DNA from: a virus
IMG/VR virus record: IMGVR_UViG_3300009103_000035
Coordinates: 1-59,031 of that record
Reading direction: 5' to 3' (one strand)
Length of the DNA stretch: 59,031 nucleotides
Part shown: piece after piece, positions 1-37,684 of the stretch
Position numbering within the stretch: the stretch's first letter is position 1
Layout of the letters: each line of letters opens with the position of its first letter
Made by a program: the position numbers and the translations under genes
The notes under the pieces: model-generated
Seen by the model: the letters and a program-made list of their open reading frames with translations, nothing else
What the model was told of the DNA's origin: nothing
The model's database searches: none

Positions 1-810
1 TTACGGTGGTCAACCAATAATACAGGACTGCGTATATGGCCAGACTGGATACAGGTGGGAGATGAGATTCGTGTAGCTCCTGGTGGTGAAGGGTTCTTAG
101 ATACCAATGGCACAACTTATGAATGGGCAACTGTTCTTGACGTTGATAATGTCAATAAGCTAATTAAACTGGATAGGGATACTGTATATGCTAGTCCAGC
201 AACACAAGAGTTAAAAGTCAGTCCAAAAAGAAAAGATATCACTAGCTGGGAGATCTATAAACAAAGTAGCCCCGTAAATATGCATAGTGGAGCTGGTAAA
301 GCTTACACTGCTGATATCTGCAATCTTGATGAGTTTGAAACCCTCAATTTCAGACCCATTATGAGAGTGTATACTAACGAACAAATTGATGAGCCAGATG
401 GTAACTTACCACCTGCAGGAATTTACACTAGCGTACCGGTTCCTACGGATGTCGCTTTTCGTATTCGATCTGATGGGAAAGTAGAAGCTAAAACAACTTA
501 TTTAACAGGTTCCTCCAGGAATATAAAACAAAATATTGAAAACCTATCAGAAGAAAAATCTAGTTTAATATTAGAGGGATTACAACCAGTAACATTTGAA
601 TATAAAACAAGTCCTGGTGAATCTCGTATAGGTTTTATTGCAGAAGATGTTCCAGAATATGTTGCTGAAAAAAATAGAAAATCAATTTCAACATTAGACA
701 TTGTTGCAGCAATAACTGGAGCCCTTAAATCACAAAGTGAAAAGGTAAAAACCCTTGAAAAAGAAATTGAAGATATGAAACAACTATTACAAAACTCAGG
801 AGTAATTTAG
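1..810 (+). CDS. Tail fibre/spike protein, C-terminal part, with S74-type intramolecular chaperone (5' end outside window)
   Basis: The frame is open from the first base, so this is the C-terminal part of a longer protein; a GTG at 55 is only an internal codon. The last ~100 residues match the endosialidase-type (peptidase S74) intramolecular chaperone: a Ser-Ser-Arg followed by IKQNIENL (around base 511), a central GFIAEDVPEYV segment, and a terminal coiled coil with Leu/Val heptads. In this family the domain trimerises the fibre and then cuts itself off at the conserved serine before the IKxNI motif. The residues before it are beta-rich fibre shaft. It is followed closely by three co-directional genes. 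The domain call is strong; whether self-cleavage occurs is inferred, since the usual Ser-Asp pair reads Ser-Ser here. Confidence 0.85.
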   Translation, partial: LRWSTNNTGLRIWPDWIQVGDEIRVAPGGEGFLDTNGTTYEWATVLDVDNVNKLIKLDRDTVYASPATQELKVSPKRKDITSWEIYKQSSPVNMHSGAGKAYTADICNLDEFETLNFRPIMRVYTNEQIDEPDGNLPPAGIYTSVPVPTDVAFRIRSDGKVEAKTTYLTGSSRNIKQNIENLSEEKSSLILEGLQPVTFEYKTSPGESRIGFIAEDVPEYVAEKNRKSISTLDIVAAITGALKSQSEKVKTLEKEIEDMKQLLQNSGVI

Positions 811-814
811 TGAA

Positions 815-1219
815 ATGGCAAACATAGTTAAAAAGGTAGATCGAGGAGTCGCAACGGCTCAACGCACACAAAACTTCACTCAAGCAGATATAACTGGAGA
901 TGGAGATATACTCAAGATTCAAGAATCCTTAGGGAAAATGGCAACACATATTGTAATTGAAGTTCCAGGTGGTGGAGGCAGCATGACTGTTAGGTTTAAT
1001 GTTATCAGAACAATCTACCCGAACAGAACAAAAGAAGAATATGATTGCCTATATCCAGAAATGTATAAGAATCTTGCCTTGGGGCAAGAAGTAGAAGATA
1101 CTACTGGAGCATTGGTTACAATTGGTGCTGGTGAAACATTCGAGCTTGACAATGATCTACCTGTCAAAGATATTAAGATCGTATCTGCATCTACCAATTT
1201 CGATATTTTCGTATGTTAA
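815..1219 (+). CDS. Small beta-rich phage protein, probably virion-associated
   Basis: I do not recognise this 134-residue protein. It begins 4 nt after the fibre stop, with AGGAG 12 nt upstream of the ATG. The sequence is soluble, beta-strand rich, has a Gly-rich turn (PGGGGS, about residue 50) and ends in a Cys. There is no signal peptide or membrane segment. Its place directly behind a fibre gene suggests a small structural or fibre-associated protein, but this is inference from position only. Confidence 0.6.
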   Translation: MANIVKKVDRGVATAQRTQNFTQADITGDGDILKIQESLGKMATHIVIEVPGGGGSMTVRFNVIRTIYPNRTKEEYDCLYPEMYKNLALGQEVEDTTGALVTIGAGETFELDNDLPVKDIKIVSASTNFDIFVC

Positions 1220-1229
1220 GGAGTGTCTT

Positions 1230-1568
1230 ATGGCTAGAAAAAATAAACAAGCCAGTATTTCATTAGAAATAGATGGTGAACAACTAGAAAAAATTGCAGA
1301 AAAAATGGCAATTACTATAGGTAAAGAACTAGCCAAGGCCCTATCTGGAGGAGTTTCAGTAAGTACAAAAAGTACTGGATTTAAGTCTTCTGGTCAGATA
1401 CAAGATATTGGTGGGGTAAGTATTGATGAATCAATCATCCCAATGAAAGTAGAAGCAACCCTAAGCTCAACAAGCAAAGAGCTGGGCAAAGAAGAGAAAT
1501 CAGAAGACAAAGGTTTATCTGATTCTAAGAAAAAATTAGCAAACCTATTTAAGAAAAAAGGAGAGTAA
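1230..1568 (+). CDS. Small charged protein upstream of the actin-like ATPase
   Basis: This 112-residue protein starts at the ATG preceded by AAGGAG (1218-1223); an in-frame start further upstream would overlap the previous gene and lacks a ribosome site. The N-terminal half has an amphipathic helix with an IAEKMAITIGKELAKAL pattern. The middle is Ser/Thr/Gly-rich and likely disordered, and the tail is strongly basic (KKKLANLFKKKGE). The family is unknown. It lies 3 nt before the actin-like ATPase, with that gene's Shine-Dalgarno inside its own end, so the two are probably co-expressed. A partner role for the ATPase is possible but unproven. Confidence 0.65.
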   Translation: MARKNKQASISLEIDGEQLEKIAEKMAITIGKELAKALSGGVSVSTKSTGFKSSGQIQDIGGVSIDESIIPMKVEATLSSTSKELGKEEKSEDKGLSDSKKKLANLFKKKGE

Positions 1569-1571
1569 GAA

Positions 1572-2570
1572 ATGCCCAAAGGCCTTGATGTGGGAACTTC
1601 TTTTCTAATCACTGCAGAGGAAACTCTAGAAGGAGTATCCTACAAAGAGATGCGTGATGCATTTTACAGAATGAAACCAGCAACAAAAATTGCTGCCAAG
1701 ATGATGGAAAGAGGATTACAGAACCTTACCTACCTAAAAGACGTTGACGGGTCCTATGTTGTCGTAGGAGCTGATGCAATTGCCAAAGCAATAGAAAGAC
1801 ACCAATCCGCACAGCGGCCCCTATACAGGGGTGTTATTAGCCCCAGAGAGCCTGATGCTCGAAGGGTGCTTAAGTTTATTTTAGCCGAGCTTGTCGGTAA
1901 ACCACAAACCCAAGGAGATACCCTTGTTTACTCAATTCCTGCTGAACCTGTTGATCAATCTGACGAAGACTTTAATACCGGATACCACGAAGATGTACTT
2001 AGAAAGGATCTTGGTGAACTTGGTTGGGATGCTAGAGCACTCAATGAAGCGGAGGCTATCTGCTATTCTGAGTTAGAAAATGAAGACTATACTGGAATCT
2101 GTATGTCCTTTGGAGCGGGTATGGTTAATGTATGTGTTATGTCTTCTGGAGAACCAGTAATCAAGTTCTCTACTACAAAATCAGGAGACTGGGTAGACAG
2201 AATGGCAGCCCAATCCACTGGACAGCCAGATAGTATTGTTCAAGTTGAAAAAGAAGAAGGTGATTTCACTGTAGGAGAAGAGTCAGAGAATCCAATCTTG
2301 TCTGCAGTAAGTTCTTATTATGTAAGACTTATTGATTACACTACACAACACCTGGCATTACGGCTTTCAAATAGCAATGACCTTCCTAAATTCCAGGGAC
2401 CTATCCCTGTGGTGGTAAGTGGAGGAACTAGTAGAGCAGGCGGATTCGTAGAAGCATTCCGCAAGAGGATGTCTCAAGCTGATTTTCCTTTAGAAATCAG
2501 TGAAGTACGTCATGCAACAGACCCCTTAAGAGCTGTTGCTAGGGGCTGCCTACTCGCAAGTATCTTGTAG
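1572..2570 (+). CDS. Actin/ASKHA-fold ATPase (ParM/MreB-like)
   Basis: The 332-residue length matches bacterial actins. Three nucleotide-binding signatures appear in order. A phosphate-1 loop, GLDVGTS, lies at residues 4-10. A phosphate-2 loop, MSFGAG, lies at 178-183, preceded by an NEAEA segment (158-162) that resembles the connecting helix E-x-x-A of MreB/ParM. An adenosine motif, VVVSGGTSRAGGF, starts near 280. The Asp usual in phosphate-2 is replaced by Ser179. Members of this superfamily bind ATP and often polymerise; in phages and plasmids they move or segregate DNA. GGAG lies 8 nt before the ATG. It sits between a basic small protein and a small winged-helix-like protein, an arrangement like an actin-type partition operon. 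The fold is well supported; filament formation and DNA segregation are inference. An Hsp70- or Ppx-like enzyme is the main alternative. Confidence 0.75.
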   Translation: MPKGLDVGTSFLITAEETLEGVSYKEMRDAFYRMKPATKIAAKMMERGLQNLTYLKDVDGSYVVVGADAIAKAIERHQSAQRPLYRGVISPREPDARRVLKFILAELVGKPQTQGDTLVYSIPAEPVDQSDEDFNTGYHEDVLRKDLGELGWDARALNEAEAICYSELENEDYTGICMSFGAGMVNVCVMSSGEPVIKFSTTKSGDWVDRMAAQSTGQPDSIVQVEKEEGDFTVGEESENPILSAVSSYYVRLIDYTTQHLALRLSNSNDLPKFQGPIPVVVSGGTSRAGGFVEAFRKRMSQADFPLEISEVRHATDPLRAVARGCLLASIL

Positions 2571-2602
2571 TATGCTATACTATTCGAATGGGGAATTCGA
2601 AT
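2568..2602 (+). promoter_or_regulatory. Palindrome cluster with possible leaderless promoter at the start of the small gene
   Basis: Two features overlap here. TAGTAT and ATACTA form an inverted repeat (2568-2573 and 2577-2582, 3-nt loop). The self-complementary octamer ATTCGAAT occurs twice, at 2582-2589 and 2595-2602, spaced 13 bp start to start and flanking the ATG at 2588. TATACT at 2576-2581 is a good -10 hexamer; with it the transcript would start at or next to the ATG, which fits the lack of any Shine-Dalgarno for the next gene. No good -35 is seen. An operator bound by the downstream protein is a plausible reading. Confidence 0.4.
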
Positions 2603-2815
2603 AACACTTCAATAGATAGATTGGACGGGCTCAAGCTCGTTTATGACCTTCAAAAAAATGAGGAAGAAGTCTCATCCGTTAAGCTGATGAAGATAAAGTC
2701 CTATATACTTGATTGGTTAGAAAAGCAGGAATATATTTCTTGGAATGAGAATAAAACAAAAGCTTCTATAACTGATAAGGGGATAGGGTATCTTGCTGAA
2801 CGAAAATGGATTTAA
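2588..2815 (+). CDS. Small winged-helix-like protein, possible DNA-binding partner of the actin-like ATPase
   Basis: The 75-residue protein looks like a compact winged helix. Two helices (KLMKIKSYILDWLEKQEYI) are followed by a beta hairpin (SWNENKTKASIT) and a last helix (DKGIGYLAERKWI), a layout common in small MarR/ParR-size DNA-binding proteins. It has no Shine-Dalgarno, and its start lies inside palindromes and a TATACT box. It follows the actin-like ATPase gene by 17 nt, where actin-type partition systems place their adaptor. Its stop overlaps by 3 nt the stop of the convergent nuclease gene. The fold call is by eye and the role is inferred. Confidence 0.5.
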   Translation: MGNSNNTSIDRLDGLKLVYDLQKNEEEVSSVKLMKIKSYILDWLEKQEYISWNENKTKASITDKGIGYLAERKWI

Positions 2816-3168
2816 TATGGCTTAGCTAAACCTTCGTTGATCATTAAGCTATTTACACAGATCCAATCTGGGCTTGTAGTATAGATCTCTCCAAGGTAGC
2901 GTCCGTATTTTCCTTTCTTATCTTTGACTGTCTCAAGAGCAATCTCTTTTCCAAGGACTAGTTCCTCTAGCCTATTTTTTGCCTTCATACCTGCCTTGTA
3001 TTCCTCTGAGTCTTTTTTAACTCCATAGGTTTCAGGAGTATTTATCCTGGCGAGACGTATTCTTTCTTTCACAAAGACATTCATCCCTAGATCAATCTCT
3101 AGGTCTACTGTGTCTCCATCTACTACTCTAACTACAGTAGCTTTATATAGGTAATAGTTCCTCTGCAT
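2812..3168 (-). CDS. Staphylococcal nuclease (SNase/thermonuclease) domain protein
   Basis: The 118-residue protein is a single SNase domain. VDGDT (residues 16-20) gives the calcium-site aspartates, IRLARINTPE (37-46) gives the catalytic Arg38 and Glu46, and KKGKYGRYLG supplies Arg90, equivalent to Arg87 of the staphylococcal enzyme. The usual second calcium Asp (Asp40) reads Asn43. The family cleaves DNA and RNA with calcium. I start at the ATG 13 nt downstream of the previous stop; an upstream ATG at 3225 would overlap that gene by 44 nt and add a basic stretch that is not a convincing signal peptide. It is the last gene of the inverted three-gene cassette. With no signal peptide it is probably cytoplasmic unless the longer start is used. 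Confidence 0.85.
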   Translation of the reverse strand: MQRNYYLYKATVVRVVDGDTVDLEIDLGMNVFVKERIRLARINTPETYGVKKDSEEYKAGMKAKNRLEELVLGKEIALETVKDKKGKYGRYLGEIYTTSPDWICVNSLMINEGLAKPY

Positions 3169-3181
3169 TTGCTTTCTCTTT

Positions 3182-5041
3182 CTACCTGCAAATATCAGTG
3201 AACATATCTTTGAGCATATCGACATAGGAACTCACATCATTTACAAGAATATTTTTTATTTTATTTGGATCAGACTCCACTACAGGCAACCACATTTGTG
3301 TAAAGATAGGCTTTGTAATGACAAAGAATTCATATATATCACCGGCAGTGCAGTCACCAACTGTACAATGATTTGAATATAGTGCAACATCTGATGGGCT
3401 TACGTTGGTCATTGTTTGTCCAACCTCATCTGTCATTAATATAATGTATGGATGAGCATCTTCTCTCCAATTGATCCCTATTGGATCTTCAGGCATACAA
3501 GCCATATATGAAATATCATATGTGTACTCATAAGATCCTCCATTTGCTTGCAATCCACCAAGAATACCAGTTAGTTGATTTACATCTACTAGCATATTCC
3601 CAGGGACTCCAGTTCTTATCTCATAGGTATTACTGCCAGCGTATCCTACACTTGTTGTAATTAAACCAAACTTATGTTCAGTGCCTTGAAAATCAGAGAC
3701 ATACAGCCCCAATGCATGCGATAAAGCATCAATATAACTCTGCATAGAGCCAGAGATATCAACAACAAATATTATATCAACCTTGTCATGTGGATCTAGT
3801 TCCTCATCAACTAAGCCGTCACAGTCATTATCGAGACCATCACAGAATTCCTGTTCAGGATGGACCTCACCAATACATTCAGAGTAGATACCCATTTCAC
3901 ATTCAGTTTGCCCAGCCCTGCATTCTCCAATACCAACTAGCTCTGGATTATCTGAACAGGGAAGAACGATTCCATCTATCTCTCCATCGCAATCATCATC
4001 CCATGCATTGCAAACTTCTGGTAAGGTTCTAACAAAAAAACAATCTCCATACTCTCCATATATATCGCAGTATTGTATCCCTTCCCCACAGGGATAGGGA
4101 GCACCCAGTTGTTCTCCTGTATTGATATCGAACATAGGACTTTCCACACAGATTTGCGTATCTCCAAAAGCGCATGGACAGCCTTCGTCTACTTCCCCAT
4201 TGCAGTTATTGTCTACACCATCGCATAGTTCTTGACTTGGCTCTGGAGCTGTACAGTTATACCAATCTCCACTGTAGCAAATCTCTATTCCCTGACCACA
4301 TGCTGTCTCACATAATTGATATATGTTGTTATCCTTGATTCCATCACAATCATTATCAATATTGTCACATGTTTCTGCCTGAGGATATTCTGCTCCCACA
4401 CAAGTCAGCTCACCATTAACACAATGGTTTTGTCCATAAGAACAAGCACCCCAATTGGTTTCTGGTCCACAAATGGTTGGAATAATATCTTCATCAATTA
4501 ATTCGTTACAGTTATCGTCTATGCTATTGCATAGTTCGTCAGCTCCTGGATTGATATGTGGGTTGTTATCATCACAGTCTCCATCACAAACTGGATATTG
4601 ATCATTATCAATATCAGCTTCATCTTGAGAAACATGACCGTCACAATCATTGTCTAGATTATCACATAGCTCTGGGGCTCCTGGATAAATGGTATTATTT
4701 CCATCATCACAATCCCCATTACAGGTAGTGAAGGTATCTTCGTCTAGATCATAACCATCATCAATTATCTCGTTACAGTCATTGTCTATCCCGTCACAAA
4801 TGTCTTCTGACGGACGTACAAATCCCTCACAAATAATTGAATTTTCTCCTGTACATTGTACTGTTCCGGTTTGACATGCCCCAATGTTGAGTGTAGTGTA
4901 CTCGGGACTTTCAGGCTCAAGTAATTGAACTTGATCGTCAACAATTATGCAGGCCTTTGTAGATGGACAGTAATTTAGAATGTCTTGATTGCTGCAGCTG
5001 ATAAGAGAAATAGCAACAGCCAGGGAGAGCAATACCCTCAT
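3182..5041 (-). CDS. Surface lipoprotein with MopE-type metal-binding repeats and a von Willebrand A domain
   Basis: The 619-residue protein opens with a lipoprotein signal peptide and a textbook lipobox, LISC (Cys16). Residues ~40-420 hold seven copies of a Cys/Asp module of the type CDGxDNDCDGxxDE, some with GDCDDxNPxxxPGA spacers; this is the putative metal-binding motif seen in MopE and many myxobacterial surface proteins. A von Willebrand A domain follows (about 420-600), with the MIDAS motif DISGSM near residue 427 and a later MTDE strand. The expected place is the cell surface, anchored by lipid, binding Ca2+ or another metal through repeats and MIDAS. AGGAGG precedes the ATG. It lies between a protease and a nuclease in a cassette opposite to the structural genes. 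Such a protein is unusual for a phage and may be a host-derived conversion gene. Confidence 0.85.
   Translation of the reverse strand: MRVLLSLAVAISLISCSNQDILNYCPSTKACIIVDDQVQLLEPESPEYTTLNIGACQTGTVQCTGENSIICEGFVRPSEDICDGIDNDCNEIIDDGYDLDEDTFTTCNGDCDDGNNTIYPGAPELCDNLDNDCDGHVSQDEADIDNDQYPVCDGDCDDNNPHINPGADELCNSIDDNCNELIDEDIIPTICGPETNWGACSYGQNHCVNGELTCVGAEYPQAETCDNIDNDCDGIKDNNIYQLCETACGQGIEICYSGDWYNCTAPEPSQELCDGVDNNCNGEVDEGCPCAFGDTQICVESPMFDINTGEQLGAPYPCGEGIQYCDIYGEYGDCFFVRTLPEVCNAWDDDCDGEIDGIVLPCSDNPELVGIGECRAGQTECEMGIYSECIGEVHPEQEFCDGLDNDCDGLVDEELDPHDKVDIIFVVDISGSMQSYIDALSHALGLYVSDFQGTEHKFGLITTSVGYAGSNTYEIRTGVPGNMLVDVNQLTGILGGLQANGGSYEYTYDISYMACMPEDPIGINWREDAHPYIILMTDEVGQTMTNVSPSDVALYSNHCTVGDCTAGDIYEFFVITKPIFTQMWLPVVESDPNKIKNILVNDVSSYVDMLKDMFTDICR
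3755..4930 (-). repeat. Seven Cys/Asp (MopE-type) modules within the lipoprotein gene
   Basis: Seven diverged copies of C-(D/N)-x-x-D-(N/D)-(D/N)-C-(D/N)-(G/E) followed by acidic residues are spread over this stretch. They are read on the minus strand, are variably spaced, and are separated by other Cys-containing strands. Boundaries are approximate. In known MopE-type proteins such modules bind metal ions and are cross-linked by disulfides, which would require export from the cytoplasm. Confidence 0.8.
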
Positions 5042-5071
5042 ACCCTTTTCCTCCTGGTTGTGAAGAACTAA

Positions 5072-5782
5072 CTATTTGGCGATAGTCTTTTTAATAAATT
5101 CTCTTATCTCATCTACAGGGACTGCTAATGCAGTTTCATGAATGCCGAGGGGTTGTACAACAACCATCCCTACGACCTCACCGTTTCTCAATACGGGAGA
5201 ACCACTGTTTCCTGCTTCGATATTAACGGCTATAAAAATCATATCACTAAATTGCTGAAAACGATAGGCAAGAGAGGAAATAATTCTCCCTTCTCTTCTT
5301 ACTGGAAAGAATCCACGAGGTGCTCCAATGATTGTGACCTCATCTTCAGTAGATAATTCAGCTACTGACTCTGCAAGAGACAATGGTTCCATTCCATGAT
5401 CAATAGATTCTATAATACAAATATCGTTAGGTCTGTCATACCCAACAATTCTTGCAAGGATAGGGGTTCTGGGCATACCTCTTTTATCTGAACGAACAAG
5501 AAGAACCTTTTCACCAACTAATCCCTGAGCAAATAAAATAGAACTAGATTCGCAAAAATGACCAGCAGTTAATAAATGCCTTTCATCAATTGCAAAGCCT
5601 GTGGCAGTTCCACCACCATGACCTTTTTTCCCAGGAGTAGACTGAAGCAAAGCAACAGAGTTGTAAAACTTAGTCTTTAATAAGCTATTGATTTTATTTG
5701 GAAACCTGCTACAAGAAATACAAGACACAGTTAGAGTTAGACCTAGTGAAACTAGTGCCAACAAGTTCTTCATTTTTATCAT
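5072..5782 (-). CDS. Exported trypsin-like (S1/HtrA-type) serine protease without PDZ domain
   Basis: The 236-residue protein has an N-terminal signal segment with cysteines at 21 and 24; it may be a lipoprotein, but neither cysteine has an ideal lipobox. The mature part is a single chymotrypsin-fold protease with the complete triad: His75 in LLTAGHF, Asp120 in NDICIIE and Ser193 in GNSGSP. The C-terminus ends soon after the domain (AVPVDEIREFI), so no PDZ domain is present. It is expected in the periplasm or on the cell surface. It is the first gene of the inverted cassette, 30 nt before the MopE/VWA lipoprotein, behind its own promoter-like element. GGAGG lies about 10 nt upstream of the ATG. 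It might process the lipoprotein or other envelope proteins; the substrate is not deducible. Confidence 0.85.
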   Translation of the reverse strand: MIKMKNLLALVSLGLTLTVSCISCSRFPNKINSLLKTKFYNSVALLQSTPGKKGHGGGTATGFAIDERHLLTAGHFCESSSILFAQGLVGEKVLLVRSDKRGMPRTPILARIVGYDRPNDICIIESIDHGMEPLSLAESVAELSTEDEVTIIGAPRGFFPVRREGRIISSLAYRFQQFSDMIFIAVNIEAGNSGSPVLRNGEVVGMVVVQPLGIHETALAVPVDEIREFIKKTIAK

Positions 5783-5810
5783 TGGTTGTTACCCTCCATA
5801 CCCTATAGTT

Positions 5811-5838
5811 ATGATAACAGCTTAAATAGGTTTTTCAA
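5811..5838 (-). promoter_or_regulatory. Sigma70-like promoter for the protease/lipoprotein/nuclease cassette
   Basis: Read on the minus strand: TTGAAA (5838-5833), a 16-nt spacer, TATCAT (5816-5811). It is the best -35/-10 pair in the 119-nt divergent region and points into the inverted cassette. It stands back to back with the plus-strand promoter candidate. Confidence 0.5.
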
Positions 5839-5848
5839 ATGAAGTGAA

Positions 5849-5876
5849 TTGAAGTATAAACTCCTCATGGTATACT
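5849..5876 (+). promoter_or_regulatory. Sigma70-like promoter for the lysis/fibre block
   Basis: TTGAAG (5849-5854), a 16-nt spacer and TATACT (5871-5876) lie 25 nt before the ATG of the first gene of the fibre block, leaving a short leader that carries its GGGGGAG ribosome site. Confidence 0.55.
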
Positions 5877-5901
5877 GCTAATAGTTGGGGGAGTTGTACA
5901 C

Positions 5902-6183
5902 ATGAAAGAACCGGGGTATAAGTGGATGATAGGGCCGATGATTACGGTCACTATGTTAGTATGTGGATTAGCTACTAGTTGGGGAGTCACTAAGACTTCT
6001 TTAGATCAATTAAATACACAATTAGTAAAAGTAGAATTGAAAATAAATGAACATGAGGATAAGATTAGAGATATACAGATACAGCAAGCTGGGACAAACC
6101 AAGTCCTAAAGAGTATCCAAAATAGCTTAGAAGAAATAAAGGAAGATTTAAGAGTCTTACGTTCTCACACAAAGAGAAAGTGA
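5902..6183 (+). CDS. Small membrane protein with coiled coil (spanin- or lysis-accessory-like)
   Basis: The 93-residue protein has one N-terminal transmembrane helix (about residues 9-29, IGPMITVTMLVCGLATSWGV). A long charged coiled coil follows to the end, with an N-in, C-out-compatible layout. This resembles inner-membrane spanin subunits and other phage lysis accessories, but there is no specific family signature. GGGGGAG lies 8 nt before the ATG and a TTGAAG/TATACT promoter lies just upstream. It is followed 1 nt later by a holin-like gene, which supports a lysis role. Confidence 0.65.
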   Translation: MKEPGYKWMIGPMITVTMLVCGLATSWGVTKTSLDQLNTQLVKVELKINEHEDKIRDIQIQQAGTNQVLKSIQNSLEEIKEDLRVLRSHTKRK

Positions 6184-6184
6184 G

Positions 6185-6436
6185 ATGGAAGAACAGAAAA
6201 TAAGAAACGGAAGAAAGTTCAAACTAACTATCCTTCTTAGTGTTTTATGTTTGCTTGGATTCTTTGTTACTGTAACTCACACAGAGTTATCAAAAAATTA
6301 TGAAGAACTGTGTGATACTTTAGTAACAATATTGCTTGTATACTGTGGAGGCAACGTTGGTAATAAGTGGCTAAGCGCGGCACCACCGCCTGAGACACCA
6401 AAGCCAAAAGGAGCTTCAAGAAAAAAAACAACTTAG
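6185..6436 (+). CDS. Holin-like membrane protein with two transmembrane helices
   Basis: The 83-residue protein has two hydrophobic helices (about 14-32 and 46-62) separated by a short acidic loop, and a basic, Pro/Lys-rich C-terminus. This layout is typical of class II holins, which form lesions in the inner membrane at the end of infection. It starts 1 nt after the preceding spanin-like gene and is probably translationally coupled to it. The matching endolysin candidate, an amidase, is 40 kb away. The holin call rests on topology, size and neighbour only. Confidence 0.55.
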   Translation: MEEQKIRNGRKFKLTILLSVLCLLGFFVTVTHTELSKNYEELCDTLVTILLVYCGGNVGNKWLSAAPPPETPKPKGASRKKTT

Positions 6437-6445
6437 AGGTTGTTA

Positions 6446-8626
6446 ATGTCTCTTACAAATACTGAAGAGTTGAGACTGAAGGCTATAGAAAGCAAGCTCA
6501 ATACTTTTCAGAAAGCAATTAGAAATCTTGCTTCTAAAGAAGAATTAAAACAGTTACTGCTGGTGAAAGACACAGTGGAAGTAGTGTTGCGTCAAATTGT
6601 TGACGAAACTGTTAACTTGGAAGTACTAACAGATACTAACTTACAACTACCTGTACAGAATAATCAAATTCTGAGATTTGATTCAACTGAACAAAGATGG
6701 AAGAATGTAAGCCTAAGTGATAGTGGCGGTGATGGTGGTGGTGGAAGTAGCGATGTCACTGTGTTGGGAGACCTGGCCAATGTGACTTTACCTCAGAGCA
6801 GCAACATGGATAACCAAAGTATCCTTTGGTATAACAGTGCGCTTGACGAGTGGAGACATGCAAACGTAATTAATTCTACTGATCTTAACGATGGAACCTC
6901 AAATAATATAACTCTAGTTCCTCAAGATCAGGGCACCGTAAAGGTAGCAGCAGACTATAAAGATCGAACAGAGTTTGATGAAAACGCATTGACACCAAAA
7001 GGATATGTCGATGCTGAGTTAGCAAAGTTTTCCCCAATATCCCCCCCTGACTTTCCTAACTCTCAAACTCTATTTCTTGTTACAAGTGCAGGTGGAACTA
7101 CACCAAGAACTGCGATAGGAAATAATCCAAAACTAAGTAGCGGAGCAGTTACAGATAACAGTGCTGGACAAAATCCACCAGCTACTGCAGGGCAAGCAGT
7201 TCTAAGAATTCCAAGTGGAACACTTATACATACAAATACTATTGCAGAATGTGGTCCAGGGAATAAAGGGAATCTAAATCTTTTACTAAATGGAGTATCT
7301 GCTGGGTTAATTAACTTTACGGATTCTGATGATAGTCAGATATTAGCCTCTTTAAGAATCAGCAATAATATTGATTTCCCAGATATATTTCCAGGGTTTC
7401 ATATGAAATTTGATGCCAGAGGAGATAATATCAATGCTACCCAACCAGGATGGTCTAGCTTGGTTATGCAGCACAGTGAAATAGCAGAAACTCTTGAAGT
7501 TTATTTTCTTCTGGATGATATGACAGCAAATCCTGGTTTAGTAAATCCCAATGCAGTAACAATAACAGAGTCAGCAGAAGGCACCTTAAGTTATATTACA
7601 GGCATTCCACACTATAGTTCAGATAGTAAATTGCTAATTTCTAATTTGGAAATGACAGGAGTTACAGGGGAATGTTATTTTGATGGTTCTCCGGTGGTTG
7701 CACATACAAATGAAACATCTTCTGGGGTTAACTCAAATAATAAAACCTACGAATCTATTGGAGCTGCAGGAGCAACTATAGATGGTAGCTTTATTCCAGA
7801 AGTAGATATAGGGGTTCTTGCTTTAAATCCCGTAGAATATACAGTAAATACTTCTGATGCTCCCGGTGAAATTCACCTTGCTGTTACATTTAAGAATTGT
7901 AATGGGTCGGAAACATTTGAGTTTCCTAGTCAGAAAATATTAATCAATCCCTCAAATGCTCCTGGTGGTAGTGTGAATGAAATAGCTGGCTTGCAGGTGT
8001 CAGGGCTTGGGTCACAGCCTAATAATAATAATGCTTTTAGGGGAGTTACTGGTTCTGGAGATACGCCAGACATTGATCCAGATTCTATATTCGATCATAC
8101 TGCATCTTTGGTTGGCGATTTGGAAACAGCAATTACTGTAGGTGGTGTTTTAAAACATAGCGTAGAAGATTTTTCAAATAGATTGCCTGCTGGACCTGAC
8201 TTATCCCAAACACCAGGAAGATCGGGAAGACAATATGCAACTTATAAATTTCAAAGAACAGGTCAAAAGAAATTCGACTTAAGAGTTGTTGGAAAAGTTT
8301 CTGGTTTGTGGATCAAACAACCACAAGCAACAGAAGCATACACAACAGCAGAACAAAACGGATGGTTTGATACAACAAAACCATATGCAGGATCTGGTAT
8401 TCCTGGAAACGGTCCTGGAGGAAATGGAGACAATAATTATGGTTGTGCTGTTTGGAATGTCAACACAGAACCACTTGTGACTGGACAACAAACAGATCAA
8501 ACAATTACTTGTACATTTGGCACTTTAAGCACGACAGGATCTTATAATAATTTTATTCTTTTAAGGATTGCTCTTGAGTCTGGAGACTCAATAACAAATC
8601 TCCAAATAAATCAAGCAACTAATTAA
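6446..8626 (+). CDS. Fibre/adhesin protein 1, helical N-terminal docking module
   Basis: I choose the ATG with GAGG 7 nt upstream, giving 726 residues; an in-frame TTG six bases earlier is less likely. The N-terminal ~50 residues are helical (an LRLKAIESKLNTFQKAI pattern) and are related to the start of the protein at 19221. A Gly-rich linker (GGDGGGGSS, near residue 95) leads into beta-rich modules. The region from about residue 190 to the end is paralogous to the C-terminal part of the next gene, including a SGIPGNGPG turn, a CTFGTL segment and an ALESGDSITNLQ end. It is probably a virion-attached fibre or baseplate adhesin. There is no enzymatic motif. It heads a series of eight fibre-type genes. 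Confidence 0.7.
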   Translation: MSLTNTEELRLKAIESKLNTFQKAIRNLASKEELKQLLLVKDTVEVVLRQIVDETVNLEVLTDTNLQLPVQNNQILRFDSTEQRWKNVSLSDSGGDGGGGSSDVTVLGDLANVTLPQSSNMDNQSILWYNSALDEWRHANVINSTDLNDGTSNNITLVPQDQGTVKVAADYKDRTEFDENALTPKGYVDAELAKFSPISPPDFPNSQTLFLVTSAGGTTPRTAIGNNPKLSSGAVTDNSAGQNPPATAGQAVLRIPSGTLIHTNTIAECGPGNKGNLNLLLNGVSAGLINFTDSDDSQILASLRISNNIDFPDIFPGFHMKFDARGDNINATQPGWSSLVMQHSEIAETLEVYFLLDDMTANPGLVNPNAVTITESAEGTLSYITGIPHYSSDSKLLISNLEMTGVTGECYFDGSPVVAHTNETSSGVNSNNKTYESIGAAGATIDGSFIPEVDIGVLALNPVEYTVNTSDAPGEIHLAVTFKNCNGSETFEFPSQKILINPSNAPGGSVNEIAGLQVSGLGSQPNNNNAFRGVTGSGDTPDIDPDSIFDHTASLVGDLETAITVGGVLKHSVEDFSNRLPAGPDLSQTPGRSGRQYATYKFQRTGQKKFDLRVVGKVSGLWIKQPQATEAYTTAEQNGWFDTTKPYAGSGIPGNGPGGNGDNNYGCAVWNVNTEPLVTGQQTDQTITCTFGTLSTTGSYNNFILLRIALESGDSITNLQINQATN

Positions 8627-8636
8627 GGCAAATATA

Positions 8637-10946
8637 ATGGCAGTTAATGATTCAGAAAAAATTGATTTATTGATAAAGAAGCTGATCTATTCTGTATCAA
8701 AAACACAGAATGCTTCTGACTTAGCTCCTTATGAAGAGGGGGTCGCTAGCCCTCTGTGGTGTGCAGGAAATGAAATCTGGATTAATGCAAAAGAAATTCC
8801 GGCAATTCCTCCTACTGAAAACAATGAAAATATCAAATTAGAAACAGTAAATCTAACAAGAGATGAAAGTGCAACAGGAATTAGATCTTGGTTGGCTATA
8901 GATGGAACTGGAACTAGGTTTCAAAATTGGATTCCCAGTTCCTTTGGTCCACAGTATAGCGTAAAGCTCTACAAGGGTGATCCTTCTTCAGGAGGAACTT
9001 TGTTATTTCAAAGCTTGGTTGATTATCTTTTTGATTATAGAAGTGGAGTCTTAAGTTTCATAGGTCAGAATGCTCCGTCTTTCACAGGTATAACTGAATC
9101 AAGCACAGATCTTTTTCTTGTTGGATATAGATATATTGGGCCAACAGATATCTCTGATTATCTAAGTGGGGGAGGAGGCGGTGGCTCAGGCGGTGGTGGC
9201 CTTGGCAACGAGATAGAGCTAGGTTCTCCTACCGACACTGACTTAACAGATGGTCGCTTAGCAAAACCACCAGCAATTACTCTTACAGAACAAACAACAG
9301 TAACAGACGCGATAGATTCTCTAAACGAAACAATTGGATTGTTATTGCCAACAGCTCCACCTGTATTTCCGGGGGATCAATCTTTAACATTTTCTAGTGT
9401 TGGAAACACGCCCTTTCTATGTGCAGGTGTTACTGATTATTCAGATGAGCCAACTGGTTCTGCGAACAAAGTTCTACCAGGAGATGCTGTAGTAAGAGTC
9501 ATTACAGGAACAAATGTTCTTTCAAATACGATAACCTCTTGTGGACCAGGAGATGCCGGAACCCTAACTGCCACATTAAATAAGACAACTGCTGATGAGG
9601 CAGCCATAGGAACCCCTGTTGTACTTGATAGTCAAGATAACTCAACAGACCCTAACGACAACTCGATTGAGTTAATAATCACAAACAACACATGGTATCC
9701 AATAGAGACTCCTGGTTTTTGGCAGTCATTTGATAGCTCTCTATCTATAAACTATAACAATATTTTACCAGGAATACACAAGGCAACAATAGAGCATACT
9801 TCAGGAACGGAGTTGCACGGGTTCTTTGTTTTCGATGATTTTATCAGCAATCCCAACATCGATGCCTCCGAAATGACAATTTCTGATGTGAACAGAAACA
9901 CTGTCTACTCTTCTGGTGTTGGTCACTTTGGACAAGGGGCTAAGGTTATTCTTTCTGGTATTAAACTATCTAATATAGTCGGAAAAACTTACTATGGCGG
10001 TGACTTTATTACAGTTAGTATCTCTAACTCGCTTGATATGGGGAGTGACGTAACTCCCCTTGCAGGTGGTCCGATTTCCTACAATCACACAGACTTTGGA
10101 AAGCCCCCAGAACTAAGCGAAACAGACTGGCAATCACCAGAAGAATTATCAAATGGAGTCGATATTTTATTAAACAATACAGACTCTATAAAGGTTTTTC
10201 GTTTACAAATGTCAGTTACCAATGTGAATGCAACAGAAAGCATACAGCTATCTCCTACATTTCTATATGCAAACGGGAATCCTGTTGATGCTATTGTTGA
10301 GGATGCGATCCCTGTTGTAGGCTTCTCAGGAGCAACAAATGCAGAAAGAATTAAATTTCCTGCAAGCGTTGGTTCAGCAACAGACCAACCTATAAATGCA
10401 TACACTCCCACTGATTCTGATTTTTTCTGGAATGGTGGAACATCATTTGCAAATTTATTATACGCTACTGTTGTTGGTGGGCAGATATCCCATGATACTA
10501 CAAACTATCAAAGCTACTATCCTGCTGGACCAAATTATAGCGGCTCAGATCGTCAAACAAACGTGCAGTATATTACATTTAGATTTACAGGTGCAGGTAT
10601 TAGCAATTTTGATATAGATATAAAAGGACAGATAAGAAAATGTTTTGTAAAACTAGAAGGAATTACAGATCAGTACAGTAGTACAAAATGGTGGTCGATG
10701 AATACGGCTGCTGAATCTGGAATACCTGGAGATATTCCAGGCCTTCCAGATGTTAGTGGTAGTCTTGGTTGCGCTTCTTCAAATACTGTGATGCCTTCTG
10801 GATCCACAATTGATGGTAGATTTAATTGTACATTCGGATTGGCTAACAGCACCAATGCTGCAAATAACGGAATACTTATTCGTTTTGTTTTGGATTCGGG
10901 AGACTACATTAAAAAACTTAGATTCGTAAATCCTTCTTCTACTTAG
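8637..10946 (+). CDS. Fibre/adhesin protein 2, paralogue of its neighbours on both sides
   Basis: The 769-residue protein is a mosaic. Its first ~180 residues are clearly related to the N-terminus of the giant protein that follows: KIDLLIKKLIYSVSKT, then a NEIWINAKEIPA segment and an RYIGPTDIS end. Its region after a Gly-rich hinge (SGGGGGGSGGGG, near 178) is related to the C-terminal part of the preceding protein. So the N-terminus is shared with one neighbour and the C-terminus with the other. This fits a docking module followed by an exchangeable receptor-binding part. AAGG precedes the ATG. It is a structural protein by inference and carries no catalytic motif. Confidence 0.7.
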   Translation: MAVNDSEKIDLLIKKLIYSVSKTQNASDLAPYEEGVASPLWCAGNEIWINAKEIPAIPPTENNENIKLETVNLTRDESATGIRSWLAIDGTGTRFQNWIPSSFGPQYSVKLYKGDPSSGGTLLFQSLVDYLFDYRSGVLSFIGQNAPSFTGITESSTDLFLVGYRYIGPTDISDYLSGGGGGGSGGGGLGNEIELGSPTDTDLTDGRLAKPPAITLTEQTTVTDAIDSLNETIGLLLPTAPPVFPGDQSLTFSSVGNTPFLCAGVTDYSDEPTGSANKVLPGDAVVRVITGTNVLSNTITSCGPGDAGTLTATLNKTTADEAAIGTPVVLDSQDNSTDPNDNSIELIITNNTWYPIETPGFWQSFDSSLSINYNNILPGIHKATIEHTSGTELHGFFVFDDFISNPNIDASEMTISDVNRNTVYSSGVGHFGQGAKVILSGIKLSNIVGKTYYGGDFITVSISNSLDMGSDVTPLAGGPISYNHTDFGKPPELSETDWQSPEELSNGVDILLNNTDSIKVFRLQMSVTNVNATESIQLSPTFLYANGNPVDAIVEDAIPVVGFSGATNAERIKFPASVGSATDQPINAYTPTDSDFFWNGGTSFANLLYATVVGGQISHDTTNYQSYYPAGPNYSGSDRQTNVQYITFRFTGAGISNFDIDIKGQIRKCFVKLEGITDQYSSTKWWSMNTAAESGIPGDIPGLPDVSGSLGCASSNTVMPSGSTIDGRFNCTFGLANSTNAANNGILIRFVLDSGDYIKKLRFVNPSST

Positions 10947-10954: not shown

Positions 10955-13900
10955 ATGGCAATTAATCAAAATGAAATCGTAGATTTACTTTACAAAAAAC
11001 TCGCATATGGCGTTGCAAAAACGAATACAGAATTAGAAAGATCTCCAACTGAAGAGAATATTCCTTCACCTGTAAGTAGTTTCGGAAACTATATTTGGAT
11101 ATCTGCAAGTAGCATTCCTGCGACTCCTCCAGCTTCTTCTAATGTGATCGTAGAAAGATATCAAAGAGTAGACGATCCAACAACGCACATTGAACTTACA
11201 AGAAATACGGAAGTTTCAAATAATAGATCCTGGATGGCTAAAGATGGAAACAATGACGCATTAAGAAATTGGATTCCTCCTGTATTTGGCAGCGGTTATT
11301 CAATCAAAGTCTGGGCAGGCAATCCGCTTACTGGAGGAACTAGACTCTATCCAAAAGGAAGTGGAAATAATGATGAATTTTATTTTGATTATGATTCTGG
11401 AACATTAAATTTTATTGGAAATACTGTTCCGGTGGACGCCTTTACTAAAATCTATATAGAAGGTTACAGGTACACTGGATCCACTGACATCGGAAGTTTT
11501 GTTGCAGATAGTCTTGGAGACTTACTTGATGTTAATTTAAGTGGAACAATAGATATAGGGCAAACAATTGTATGGGATGGAAATGAGTGGATTAACTCAA
11601 TGCCTCCTGGAGGATCTGATAGCAATTTTTTGATTGTTGGTCCGCAAGCAGGAGAAGCCCTACTTTATGATCACACAGATTCTAAATTCAAAAATCAATA
11701 CTTGAATATTGAAAACCTTGGGAATGTTGGAGATCTTTCTTTACATGCAGGTGAATTTCTAAAGGTAAATGATACTGCTGATGGTGTTGATTTTGCTTTA
11801 TTCTCTTCTCTCTTTACTGCTGGAAATAAAATTGATTTAAGTGGTTCTCAAATCGGACATGAACCAGCCATGAGTCCTGTTGATTTTGCTCCAGGAGCAA
11901 CAATCACAGCACAAGATTGGGTTGGAACAGAGACCCTGCATGGACAAAGATATGCAGCTTCTTTGCAATTAAAGCTATTAAAAGATATCGAGATGGATGC
12001 AGAAGGTCATGTTCTTGCTCGTGTTTGGACAGATATTACTGGAGAGCTTTATAATTATGTAGATAAAGATGAATGGCAAGAAAGATGGGACCGACACGTA
12101 AATGTAACCACCATGAGTCACAGTATATGGGACGTTGAAGAAATTACAGGTATAGATCCACAACTAAGAAATGGACTAACAAATCAACAACTACTAATTA
12201 GAAACAGGATAACTGGAGATTCTGGAGCTACAGAGGATGTTCTTCAAGCCATTGATCATAATGGTCTTCTGGTTATAGCAGATCATATTCCAGATCCTTT
12301 GGACCCTCCTGCACATCCTACACAAAAAATTACAGAAGTTCATGCAACGCATTTGTTAGATATTGACTTAGAAGTATCAAATCCTCCTGTTGCTGGAGAT
12401 GTTCTTGCTCTGCAAGATGTGGATGGACAAGGTCAACTCAGGTGGGGCTATGCTGCACTTGGGGAGGATCAAGGCGAGAGCAACAGTGGTATTTCTTTAA
12501 CTGGAAATTTTGCAAATAGTTTCGATATTTTTGTAGACAAACCGGATGGTTCAACAGACCTTAGATTTAGAGGTATCAAATTTGTTGATGGAGGTGGAGC
12601 AGCAATTACCACCGACAATCATACATGGGATGACGGAACAGATCCCAATGCTCCTTTTCCGTTAACAGTTGGGCTGATCAAAGAAGATACTGATTTGCCA
12701 AACGTAGATACTACGTTAGAGATTGGGTTTGATCCTAGTAAAATTCGAATTTATAACCTATCAGATCAAATGAGTCCGGGTGATATCGGATACCCAACAG
12801 AGGTATTGCAGAGCTGGCGAGATGATGATCCTCAAGGATCAAGACCAGGGTCAGGAGGAGGAGTGCCAAGCACCTTTGCAATGCAGTATGCAGATGGATG
12901 GTATTCTTGGGATGATACAACGGGAACGAATATAACTGACAAACCCAATACGTTGTCTCCTGATATGTGGGGTGCAATCCAAGGTGGAGGTGGCCAGGAT
13001 AACACAACTCACAGAAGCCGAAGACTAAGGACATCTGCTAGCCCGTCTTGGCAGCAATTCTCTACTCCACCACAGAGCTTACAGCAGCAAATAGATGACA
13101 AGTTGCAACTGAAATACTTTATTGACCATATGACCCTTGGTGGAAAAGTTGATCTATATCAAGACCCAAGTTTCGGTGGTTACTTCAGTAATACAGGTCA
13201 TTACGGAACCCCAACAGATGTAACAACATCAGAGGGTTTAACAAATCCAATTTTTGCAGGTAATGGCTGGGCACATGAAGCTAAAGGTATCATATTTGAT
13301 GCAAGTGACTTAAAGCACTTTGAAGAAACTGGCACATGGGGAGCATCATTTCGAGCGGATACTTCAGAGGCAGCACACCTAGCTGGAGGATATGGAAATG
13401 TAGATAATGACTGGTATAACGATGGGATAGCAGAATGGTCAATGGCACCATTCCCTGATCATTTTCATACAACAAGATCAGTAATAAAACGACACATATT
13501 AACACACGATGATAACCCGCATGGAGTAACTCATGTACATGTAAAATCAGATGAGGCTCACTGGAATGCAAATGCTTTGTCAGATGCACCACTAAATATT
13601 TCGAATCCTGAACTAGGACAAATTTTAAAATTTAATCCAAATGCTAATAATGGTGCAGGCGAATGGTATAATGCTGGTGGAGAAGCCTATGCTGGAGAAT
13701 CCAACATTGGTGAAAACCATATCCCATTAGATGGGAATGGAGATCCAATCACAACTGGAGTTGGATACTTCTACAAAGAAAAAAATCACTCTGCTTTTGC
13801 ATTGGTATTTAAGGGGATAAATTCTTCAAGTAACTTATTAACTGTTACTGATTCTGCAGAAGTAGTTACCTTAGGTTTTGATGAAACTGCTATTAGGTTT

Positions 13901-29534: not shown

Positions 29535-32500
29535 ATGGCAAATTTTCCAACCAATCCTAGTATTGGAGACTTATTTGAAACAAAACATGACACTTTTAAG
29601 TGGAACGGGAGCGGATGGGAAGCTCTCGGGAGAATTCTTACCCATAGACAAAAATCAGGAACTCCGTATTCCTCGCTCTCCATTAAGGAGAGCGGGGGTG
29701 TCTTGGACACTGACGATACAAGTACTGTTCTTCTTATAGGAGAGCAGATAACAGAAGGACAAGTTAGGGCAGCTCATTTAAGTGATGCAAACACAGTCTT
29801 TTTATCTGGAGAAACAGCAGCAACTGGAATCTCTGAATTTTCAAATGATGGAAATACTCTTTTTCTTTCAGGAGAAGGTGCTACTGCAGGACTAGAAGCA
29901 CACACAGCAGATGTGGCAACAACAGCACTTGTAACCGGAGAAAGAGACGCATCTAATTATAAAATGAGATGTAGTCTTAGCAATGATATGGTAATGAGGG
30001 AAGGCTATCGCTTTGAGCATGAAGATTGGATCAGCACTCCATCGAGCAGTGATTTTGCATTTGGAACTGGAGATTTTACAGTTGAGTTTTGGGCATACAA
30101 TGAAGACGTAAGTAATAGCACCCAAAAAGGATTAATGCAGATTTCAGATACCGCAGGAGGCATTAAAACTTCCTATGATACAGGGTTTATTTTAAATCTT
30201 GGAGGTGGCATAGGGGACGGTGTGCTTAGGTTGCATGATGGAACTCAAACAGTTGCAACAGGTGTTGGCATTATGAAAGAAAATACCTGGCAACATGTTG
30301 CAGTAAGTAGAACTAGTGGAACAGCAAAAATATTTATTGACGGGAAAGAAGAAGCTTCAGGCTCTTTCACAGCAGACGTGGTTGGAACAAATCTTGGTAT
30401 AGGCATGTATTATGGGTATAACCAAGGAGGTTATGACTACGGGATAATTGGCTATATGAAAGATATTAGAATATCTAAAGGCATAGGAAGATACACTGCA
30501 GATTTCACAACAGAGATTACGACAAAAGATAGCAACCATAAGTTAATTCTTGAGGGCAAGGATGATATTTCTGATTCAGGGCACACGGTAACCTTTCATA
30601 ACAGTGCCCATCAAGTATCTAAAACAGGAAACAAATCTTGGCACAAATTCGGATCACCTTTAGGCTACATAAGATCATATGATAGTATCTCTCTTGATGG
30701 AGACTTTACAATCGAATGGTGGTACCTATCGAAAGAAACTGGAACACAGCACATGTTTACTATCGGAGATAGTCAGCAAAGCTCTGGACTAGAATTCTAT
30801 CAGGGTGGTGACGGCCAAAAACTATACACAAACAGTGGATATATATGGACCAATGGTGGATATGTATCTACGAATACCTGGTATCATTTTGCTGTAGTAA
30901 GAAGCAGTGGAGTAGTAAAAGTCTACAGAGACGGAACTCAAATTGGTTCTGACTGGAGTACTAATACTACATTTTCAGGTCGAATCGGAGTAGGTGTGGA
31001 ATGGTACGGAAACCAAGCCTATACAAATGCGAAAGAAGCCTATTATGATGACTTCACTATACATAGAAGCGCAAAATACACTAGTGCTTTTACCCCTTCA
31101 ACCACAGCAGCTCCAATAGATGGACTCAATACACTATTTAAAGCGACAACTGATTATGACACATCAGATAGAATGCAAGATATCATTGGGTTTCACGGAA
31201 ACGCAACAACTATTGAAAAGGGCTACTATTATACAGGAAACAATAGTTCAAATAATATATTGGTTGGCAATGCAGGAACTGATTTTAATTTTGGCTCAGA
31301 TAAGTTTACTATAGAATTTTCTGTTAAATTTGATGATGTAAGTCAATACATGGGAATTCTAAAAATTAAGCACCCTTCAGAGAGTAGAAAATATCTAATT
31401 ATAGATGCACCAGGACCAAACGCTAATGAAGGTTTAAGACTCTATGTAAATGATGGCAGTGGAAGTAACAATAGTTGGAAAACCTATTGGGTTGCAGAAC
31501 CAAATTTTGAAAACGACAAGTGGTATCATATCGCTATAGTAAGAGATGGAACTGGTTCAGGTGATTGGTATTTCTTTATCAATGGAAAAGAGGAATCAAA
31601 ATGGAAGCATCCAACTGTTGCTCCAGGGGATCACTATGCGCTAGCTATCCCAGATCTCACTGATGGGATCGAAATTGGGGGCAATTCAGACAACTACATG
31701 ATGGTCGGCAACATTACAGACATCAGAGTTTCTAAAGGTGTAGCTAGATACACTAGCAACTATAGTGCACCAGTAACAGCAATTGATTCAGATCATAAAC
31801 TCGTATTAAGTGGTGGAGCAGAAGACGAATCGGATTCCGCTCACACAATAACTTTTAATGGAACTTCAGATGTAGCAACAAAGCGTGGAGATCGTTCTCT
31901 ATATTTTGATGGGACCGGAGACTACGTTACTATCCCAAGTAGTTCAGATTTTGCACTAGGAACCGGAGATTTTACAATAGAATGCTGGCTGAAATATGAA
32001 ACTGCAGATACTTTCCCATATGTATTTGATTTTAGAGATGCAGGAGCACAAGGAGTATTCCCTACTTGCTATCTAAGAAGCGACGATGGTTACAAACCAG
32101 TATATTATGTTGATAGCGCACAAAGAATCACATCTTCTGTGAGTTTAACCATCGATACTTGGTATCATCTTGCAATTTCAAGAGTTAGCGGAACAACAAC
32201 CATGTATTTGGATGGAGTAGATGTGGGTTCTTTTTCTGATTCTTATGATTATCAAGCAAGCCCTATAAGATTAGGGGCATATAGCAATGGTGATTATGAG
32301 TTAACAGGCTACATTAATGATTTTAGAGTTTCTAAAGGCACAGCTAGATATACTAGTGCTTTTGATCTTGAATCTGGAACTGGTCTTTTGGATAAAAGTT
32401 CAAATTCTCACAGCATAACTCTGTCAGGGAATGCAGCATTAAGTACAGCAGAAAAGAAATTTGGAACACATTCCTTATATTTTGCAGCAGACAATGATTA

Positions 32501-35741: not shown

Positions 35742-35759
35742 TTAGGAGGACAAATTAGA

Positions 35760-36830
35760 ATGGCAAATTTTCCAACATCACCCGCAGTAGGTGAACAATT
35801 TTCAACAAGCAAGGTAACCTACAGATGGAATGGGTCTGCTTGGGACATCGTAGAGGGTGTCAAACAAGGGACAATACAAGATAACGGCAGCCCAGTAGGA
35901 AGCTTGCAGTTTACAGAAGGTAACGAGCCTGATACTGTAGCAAATTCTTCAAGCATTTATGCCACCTCTAGTGGTATGTTTGTTAAGAATTCTTCAGGAA
36001 CAGTGTCCCCACTAATAGCTGGTGCAAGTGCAACTACCACGAGTGTAGAGCTTCCAACTATAACTTCAGCTCCAAGTGGAATTGATTCAACAGGACAAAT
36101 GGTTCACTGGGATAGAAGTGGAGAAAGTACACCCGATGGAAACGTAAAACTATTGCTCACAGGAGATACATCTACTGACGGCTCTCAGTCTAGTCACAGT
36201 ATTAGCTATAATGGCAGCACAACAACAAGTACTGAACAAGCTAAATATGGCTCTAAATCTATAAAATTTAGTGGAAGCACAGTTTCAATAGCAGATTCCG
36301 AAGATTGGAATTTTGGTTCAGGAGACTGGACAGCTGAATGTTGGGTTTATCTGAACGGTACTGGAGGACAAGGGATAATTAACCAATCTAATCCAGGTGC
36401 TAGCTCTAATTCCTCTATGATTATTTGGCTTGATGGAACTGTTGGTATCTATGTTAGCTCTGGAGCTGGTTGGACATACAACAATATAAATTCAAATAGT
36501 CTTAGTAGTGGTCAATGGATTCATCTTGCAGCTGTTAGATATGGCACATCACTAAAGATGTATGTCAATGGAACGGCAACTTCAGATACGACTCTTCCAA
36601 GCAACTGGTCTTTAGGTAATTCTTCTTTAGCATTTGAATTAGGAGCACAGGCTGGAGGATCACCTCTCAGCGGATACATGGATGATGTCCGTATCACAAA
36701 AGCAGCACAATATACAGGAAACTTCACCCCTCCAACAGCGCAGCTAACTGCAAGCACAGCTGGAGGAACAAGTGGACTTTATTACGTAGCTCCTGACGGA
36801 ACAGCAACCTTAATTAAGGAAGATTCATAA
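35760..36830 (+). CDS. Short adhesin (356 residues) with one LamG domain
   Basis: It shares the N-terminal module of the preceding giant (MANFPTSPAVGEQF, TYRWNGSAWDIV). It has a region PDTVANSSSIYATSSGMFVK and one LamG-like domain at about 130-325, ending GYMDDVRITKAAQYTGNF. It looks like a one-domain version of the nine-domain neighbour. GGAGG lies 10 nt before the ATG. The stop overlaps the start of the next small gene (TAATG). It is probably a virion adhesin. Confidence 0.8.
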   Translation: MANFPTSPAVGEQFSTSKVTYRWNGSAWDIVEGVKQGTIQDNGSPVGSLQFTEGNEPDTVANSSSIYATSSGMFVKNSSGTVSPLIAGASATTTSVELPTITSAPSGIDSTGQMVHWDRSGESTPDGNVKLLLTGDTSTDGSQSSHSISYNGSTTTSTEQAKYGSKSIKFSGSTVSIADSEDWNFGSGDWTAECWVYLNGTGGQGIINQSNPGASSNSSMIIWLDGTVGIYVSSGAGWTYNNINSNSLSSGQWIHLAAVRYGTSLKMYVNGTATSDTTLPSNWSLGNSSLAFELGAQAGGSPLSGYMDDVRITKAAQYTGNFTPPTAQLTASTAGGTSGLYYVAPDGTATLIKEDS

Positions 36831-37658: not shown

Positions 37659-37684
37659 AGGAATTACAATGAAGGAATTGGGTC

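Follow-up and report, generated by a model that had tools for sequence, protein, structure and literature searches.

What could a short cassette with two predicted lipoproteins, read from the minus strand, contribute to a virus whose flanking tail-region genes are read from the plus strand? The question is raised by a 59,031-nucleotide stretch of viral DNA, IMG/VR record IMGVR_UViG_3300009103_000035, here called the window. Three minus-strand open reading frames (ORFs) within positions 2812-5782, encoding a trypsin-like protease, a MopE-repeat/VWA lipoprotein and a staphylococcal-nuclease-like protein, lie between a plus-strand gene that ends at 2815 and another that starts at 5902; the preliminary description of three genes running against the structural block was correct. 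We read the cassette, from its sequence and with about even confidence, as a phage-borne module that remodels the envelope, probably so as to exclude superinfection or alter adhesion. This reading follows from the signals for envelope export, the metal ion-dependent adhesion site (MIDAS) head of the lipoprotein, its partner protease, the independence of the lipoprotein from late structural genes, and the surface-modifying genes that fill the same site in a relative. The features concerned are as follows.

5072-5782, minus strand: trypsin-like serine protease, predicted lipoprotein, 236 aa; Pfam Trypsin_2, 6.6e-13
3182-5041, minus strand: MopE-repeat/VWA lipoprotein, 619 aa; Pfam PF11617, 5.3e-38
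2812-3225, minus strand: staphylococcal-nuclease-like ORF; Pfam SNase, 4.6e-13; phrog_452 endonuclease, 7.2e-38
5811-5838, minus strand: promoter-like site TTGAAA-16-TATCAT, with TG before the second hexamer (motif scan and sequence)
5902-6436, plus strand: two small membrane-protein genes flanking the cassette site; Pfam XhlA, phrog_739, homologues in L031/G003

The lipoprotein combines a lipobox (Cys16, matched by regular expression), seven MopE motifs and a C-terminal, integrin-I-like VWA domain (about residues 415-619) with a DISGS MIDAS, and its composition includes 46 Cys, 122 acidic and 15 basic residues. Its match to PF11617 (Cu-binding_MopE) scored 129.4 bits against a curated cut-off of 27 (E = 5.3e-38), in seven stretches at E≤0.1, four of them at E≤0.001; the score with the Pfam VWA model PF00092, 16.3 bits (E = 0.012), fell below the cut-off of 23.8. 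In an AlphaFold model with a mean predicted local distance difference test score of 77.5, highest in and around the VWA part, residues 415-619 superposed on the integrin I domain 1mf7 with a Z score of 17.9 over 178 residues (root mean square deviation, 2.6), and the best PDB match by sequence profile was integrin alpha-X (4.8e-7). The VWA part is thus modeled with an integrin I-domain fold; an adhesion-domain fold is, by itself, no proof of function. Several statements of the preliminary description agree with these data. The seven Cys/Asp modules correspond to the seven PF11617 stretches at E≤0.1, and the MIDAS-containing VWA domain is supported by the DxSGS motif and by superposition of the model on integrin I domains, the Pfam VWA score itself being under its cut-off. 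The two signal peptides are lipobox-type signals, found by regular expression on the lipoprotein and read by eye on the protease.

Proteins of the same kind were found in many other viral contigs. A first scan gave 27 of them, three of which align nearly end to end at 43-48% identity, and a scan with an alignment of the VWA region gave at least 50 viral loci, some already known from the first. Five loci with no VWA-type match (L025, L026, L027, L148, and L149) were removed before grouping. The combined MopE-VWA lipoprotein was found at no fewer than 70 IMG/VR loci, window included, which form at least 51 groups at 80% identity; IMG/VR records are fragments, so these counts are lower bounds. 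What family members have in common is a lipobox, 2 to 8 MopE motifs, and a MIDAS/VWA domain at the C terminus. The lipobox was present in 59 of the 70 members, that of the window included, versus 12 of the 331 remaining long ORFs at these loci under the same rule, and the lipoprotein signal is therefore beyond chance. DxSGS occurred in 68/70 members, and the MIDAS residues D41/S43/S45, E118, D122, and D151/E152 were invariant across 45 aligned rows. The ratio of nonsynonymous to synonymous substitution rates (dN/dS) was 0.03-0.09 in the 17 pairs, out of 29, whose dS was unsaturated; where dS is usable, the family appears to be under strong purifying selection. Among 33 members tested, all matched PF11617 and 10 matched Pfam VWA (E≤0.001). 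None of the 33 matched a PHROG or, at E≤0.001, an NCBIfam model, including MIDASAdhsBdello (NF052240) and CglD (NF033765), and tblastn with three members against 50,697 GenBank phages gave no match. PADLOC anti-phage defence models returned no family for the lipoprotein, and partial protease- or SNase-domain matches only for the protease and nuclease. No report of phage proteins combining MopE and VWA was found among open-licence PMC papers. One viral contig carries a tandem pair of MopE-type genes (L135, 7138-10747).

Genes of this kind had been described as common in delta-proteobacterial chromosomes, not phages. That holds for MopE repeats, which are widespread among Myxococcota and related genomes, and not for the combined lipoprotein, which forms a viral family. 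A scan of genome contigs returned at least 64 loci; because it used a single MopE pattern, these show mostly MopE repeats. The search for host homologues proposed in the preliminary description was run on a sample of 377 genomes of the phylum Myxococcota with the viral VWA model, at the shallow depth of seven scored candidates per genome; of the five candidates better than 1e-12, a single one was strong (2.9e-49). That one sits in a 34.9-kb contig whose neighbouring genes resemble those of member phages and which also carries a homologous nuclease, and this suggests that a phage contig was binned with Myxococcota; the bin hints at the host without proving it. Host VWA lipoproteins are distant relatives of the viral family. 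In a tree of 54 rows (45 viral and 9 labelled host), seven host VWA rows fell outside the viral rows, with support of 82/79, which is not strong. A labelled-host row inside the viral rows, L161, comes from a phage-like contig. Another, L042_41, was discounted as a row cut in error, with no VWA on inspection and a branch of 7.3. By its sequences, the combined MopE-VWA lipoprotein is best regarded as a virus family and not as a stray host gene.

The second predicted lipoprotein, the protease, carries a lipobox (Cys24), an H75/D120/S193 triad and the conserved cysteines C77 and C122; the lipobox Cys, the triad residues and the Cys pair were invariant in a 14-row family alignment. It matched PF13365 (Trypsin_2) at 50.1 bits (cut-off, 27.6) and, by profile, the HtrA/DegP-like PDB entry 1l1j (2.8e-13). 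In the window, a good ribosome-binding site precedes each of the protease and lipoprotein genes, and about 30-31 bases separate the two, an arrangement that fits an operon. A homologous lipoprotein protease was found near 25 of the 70 lipoprotein loci, and in 20/50 whole contigs, taken as one contig per group with the group of the window excepted. For the reverse search, 23 of 80 protease loci were taken as whole contigs, four of which (G011, G012, G014, and G417) were already in the lipoprotein set; the lipoprotein was present in 11 of the 23 protease contigs, each of at least 27 kb. The two genes adjoin in the window, L008, and L009; the gaps measure 31 bases in the window, 13 in G009, and 18 in G010. 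Gaps of 761-855 bases, holding two small secreted or membrane ORFs, were seen in L108, L116, L124, and L142, and gaps of 4-11 kb in a further set of relatives. Proximity of the two genes exceeded that of random placement, with a combined P of 5e-5 to 1.5e-4 over eight lineages, which were grouped by hand with contigs under 15 kb (G404 and G416) excluded. Together with the gaps, this indicates that the protease and lipoprotein genes tend to travel together, adjacent in several layouts. The two small ORFs stand between a divergent protease gene and the MopE-VWA gene in L108 (9026-9789), L124 (9089-9800), and L142 (9021-9794), and may be a constant component of this kind of cassette. L124 also encodes a second secreted protease of the trypsin-like kind, on the opposite side of the lipoprotein gene (11116-11892, minus strand).

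The nuclease differs from its neighbours in that no signal peptide was seen in its ORF. Its first ATG lies inside the lipoprotein gene, and the ATG at 3168, 14 bases past the lipoprotein stop, is the likelier start judging by sequence. Since L120 is the sole other locus among the 70 with a homologue nearby, and the contig G244 holds a further one, the nuclease is probably a passenger, outside the cassette unit.

The position of the cassette was compared with that of its relatives. In the largest set of these, the lipoprotein gene stands among DnaB, RNR, GroES, ThyX, and DnaE genes, each family occurring in the vicinity of 10-14 of the 51 group representatives, and its expression before the late genes is therefore likely there. 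Over all representatives, 390 of 475 near neighbours lie on the strand of the lipoprotein gene; it opposes its neighbours in six (L002, L108, L116, L124, L142, and the window). On one flank in the window are plus-strand genes for a Peptidase_S74 tail-fibre protein and a volactin-like actin, and unnamed ORFs at 815-1219, 1122-1568, and 2588-2815; on the other are the two small membrane proteins and then large tail proteins, also on the plus strand. The ORF at 5902-6183 encodes an XhlA/spanin-like coiled coil (Pfam XhlA, 3.1e-4, under the cut-off; phrog_739 Rz-like spanin, 9.3e-5), and that at 6185-6436 a second small membrane protein.

The distant relative L031/G003 keeps this membrane pair beside the cassette site (L038 432-824 and 130-432; E = 2e-12 and 9e-13). 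In G003 the site itself (L038 825-8898, minus strand) is filled with sugar-epimerase, sulfotransferase, methyltransferase, and glycosyltransferase-like ORFs, named by eye; the site is therefore a variable accessory locus, and both of its fillings are surface related. This comparison rests on L031/G003 and the two small membrane proteins, because the closer relative L030/G002, 81% identical in DNA over 37068-51967, starts at about 32.3 kb and stops short of the cassette, and L029/G001 falls wholly within 37111-48616 and does not cover it. The suggestion that the cassette is a moron can thus be kept for an accessory unit with envelope proteins, inverted in 6/51 representatives and replaced by other genes in a relative, but probably not for the nuclease.

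If the cassette remodels the envelope, the host lipoprotein pathway would export the lipoprotein and protease to the outer membrane during infection. There the lipoprotein would form a long, acidic, disulphide-rich MopE stalk bearing the integrin-I-like MIDAS/VWA head, and the head could bind a protein or glycan through a metal-bridged acidic contact, its target being on the infected cell, a neighbour cell, or an incoming phage. The protease might trim nearby surface proteins or release the lipoprotein. The likeliest net effect would be changed adsorption or adhesion of the infected cell, that is, superinfection exclusion or conversion. We infer each of these elements: export, surface display, ligand binding, timing, and net effect. 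A broader and rather speculative proposal concerns large uncultured phages whose hosts are predatory or surface-living bacteria: such phages would encode integrin-like adhesins, each a MIDAS head on a MopE stalk, together with a surface protease, and would use this catch-and-release system to take over cell-cell or cell-surface adhesion of the host while infecting it.

Several observations weigh against an envelope-remodelling module. The protease and lipoprotein genes are 13-127 kb apart in other contigs, with 16-127 kb between them in several long ones, and no protease was found in 30 of the 50 contigs, many of which are fragments; for both reasons the protease is not an obligatory neighbour. 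The preliminary description gave the cassette its own TTGAAA/TATCAT promoter. Such a site does lie at 5838..5811, ahead of GGAGG and the start codon (ATG) of the protease, but positions 1-9000 contain no more promoter-like sites than shuffled sequence does (24 versus 26.7 ± 5.2), which makes it weak evidence, and the L108 group showed no conserved promoter. The mechanism cannot equal that of T5 Llp, which is small and periplasmic, whereas the window lipoprotein is long. The position beside the XhlA/spanin-like pair also fits a role in lysis.

In such a role the protease and lipoprotein would act at a late stage of infection to undermine the outer membrane or the surface layer. It is suggested by that adjoining pair and by M15-type peptidase ORFs that we read near the lipoprotein gene in L002 and L024. 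Yet the amidase endolysin of the window is 40 kb away (45986-46825), many relatives carry the lipoprotein gene in replication blocks, and no transmembrane or fusogenic feature was seen, and we consider a lysis or release accessory unlikely. A phage-encoded adhesin is a more serious possibility, although still a doubtful one: the MIDAS lipoprotein would alter host attachment, gliding, aggregation, or predation for the benefit of the phage, without blocking other phages. Its VWA domain is closest to adhesion domains, those of integrins; a related Myxococcota VWA lipoprotein (L163; hhalign, 96.8%) matches the NCBIfam MIDASAdhsBdello and gliding lipoprotein CglD models; and a contig assigned to the bin of a Myxococcota-phylum genome carries one family member. 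Those models were matched by none of the 33 phage members, however, and binning of phage contigs is unreliable.

Given its place among tail genes, the lipoprotein might instead be a virion component, either a receptor-binding or a decoration protein. Besides the tail-fibre context, a passage of PMC2147016 reports a VWA domain in gp164 of Bacillus phage 0305phi8-36, in a baseplate/fibre gene region. We think this quite improbable in view of the lipobox frequency (59/70 members versus 12/331 controls), the strand opposite to the tail genes, and the replication-block position in other relatives. Metal acquisition or copper handling by the MopE repeats is very improbable; it has the Pfam name Cu-binding_MopE in its favour, but Pfam itself labels the motif putative, and conservation is strongest in the MIDAS head and the Cys/Asp framework. 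An assembly chimera or host contamination, in favour of which stands the abundance of MopE repeats in host genomes, is hardly credible when phage genes continue on both flanks, relatives with low dN/dS occur in dozens of phage contigs, and positions 37111-48616, a part that excludes the cassette, are 99.96% identical to another contig.

The known phage lipoproteins acting on the host envelope are mainly small proteins of enterobacterial phages, and include the Llp/Cor superinfection-exclusion lipoproteins of phages T5, T1, and phi80. Among predatory delta-type bacteria, lipobox MIDAS adhesins form a group to which CglB/CglD of myxobacteria are assigned. Like Llp/Cor, the window lipoprotein is encoded by a phage, in a gene close to those for receptor-binding or tail proteins. 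In the part of PMC9586334 that deals with it, T5 Llp blocks FhuA and its gene adjoins that of the receptor-binding protein; the title of a reference there terms it early expressed. By these descriptions Llp, a small periplasmic protein, acts by jamming FhuA, whereas the window protein has 619 aa, a MopE stalk, a VWA head, and a protease partner. Bd0875 and CglB/CglD share with it the lipobox and VWA/MIDAS head, but are chromosomal, and the NCBIfam models match none of the 33 phage members. A section of PMC11003981 presents Bd0875 as a lipobox MIDAS adhesin required for correct prey invasion, with a small beta-rich domain and, in that section, no mention of MopE repeats. Neither Llp/Cor nor Bd0875 is the same system as the cassette.

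Chromosomal MopE proteins of Myxococcota have the MopE motifs, and one of them (L162, a 599-aa frame) also has a VWA domain; it scored 78 bits with the viral VWA model, against at least 126 bits in 70 of 76 viral rows, the model itself being built from viral rows. Another phage protein with a VWA domain, the gp164 mentioned above, is placed among baseplate and fibre genes, and the same passage (PMC2147016) mentions neither a lipoprotein nor MopE repeats. HtrA/DegP-like and Spl proteases have the trypsin-fold triad in common with the window protease (profile match, 2.8e-13), which differs in being a lipoprotein with a conserved Cys pair and, at 236 aa, in being too short for a PDZ domain. What emerges is a family of large integrin-like lipoproteins over at least 51 uncultured-virus groups, to which a surface protease is linked; the searches made gave the family no counterpart among PHROG or NCBIfam models or GenBank phages. 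Since the same kind of protein occurs in dozens of other uncultured viruses, it suggests a so far unnamed viral way to remodel the infected-cell surface. The cassette is a testable candidate for surface takeover by viruses with hardly studied hosts, and the MIDAS and catalytic residues point to mutants worth making.

Some other genes of the window deserve mention. The volactin-like gene in the tail-gene region (1572-2570, plus strand; PF25216, E = 1e-64) encodes a homologue of the Volactin-family actins, named after a Haloferax cell-shape protein; relatives of this gene, and of the neighbouring tail protein at 6440-8626, were sought in viral contigs and none were found. A DnaE-type DNA polymerase (55195-59012, minus strand) is split into two ORFs, which are separated by a small ORF with a HEXXH motif (57818-58360); the same polymerase in L033 (3247-6660) has an in-frame insert of ∼258 aa, absent from the window, with intein-like ends and an HNH-like motif. 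Positions 29535-36830 encode a long repetitive tail or baseplate protein of 2068 aa with many internal repeats, which align to the relative L032 (1-4906) in several registers, as if repeat number shifts fast.

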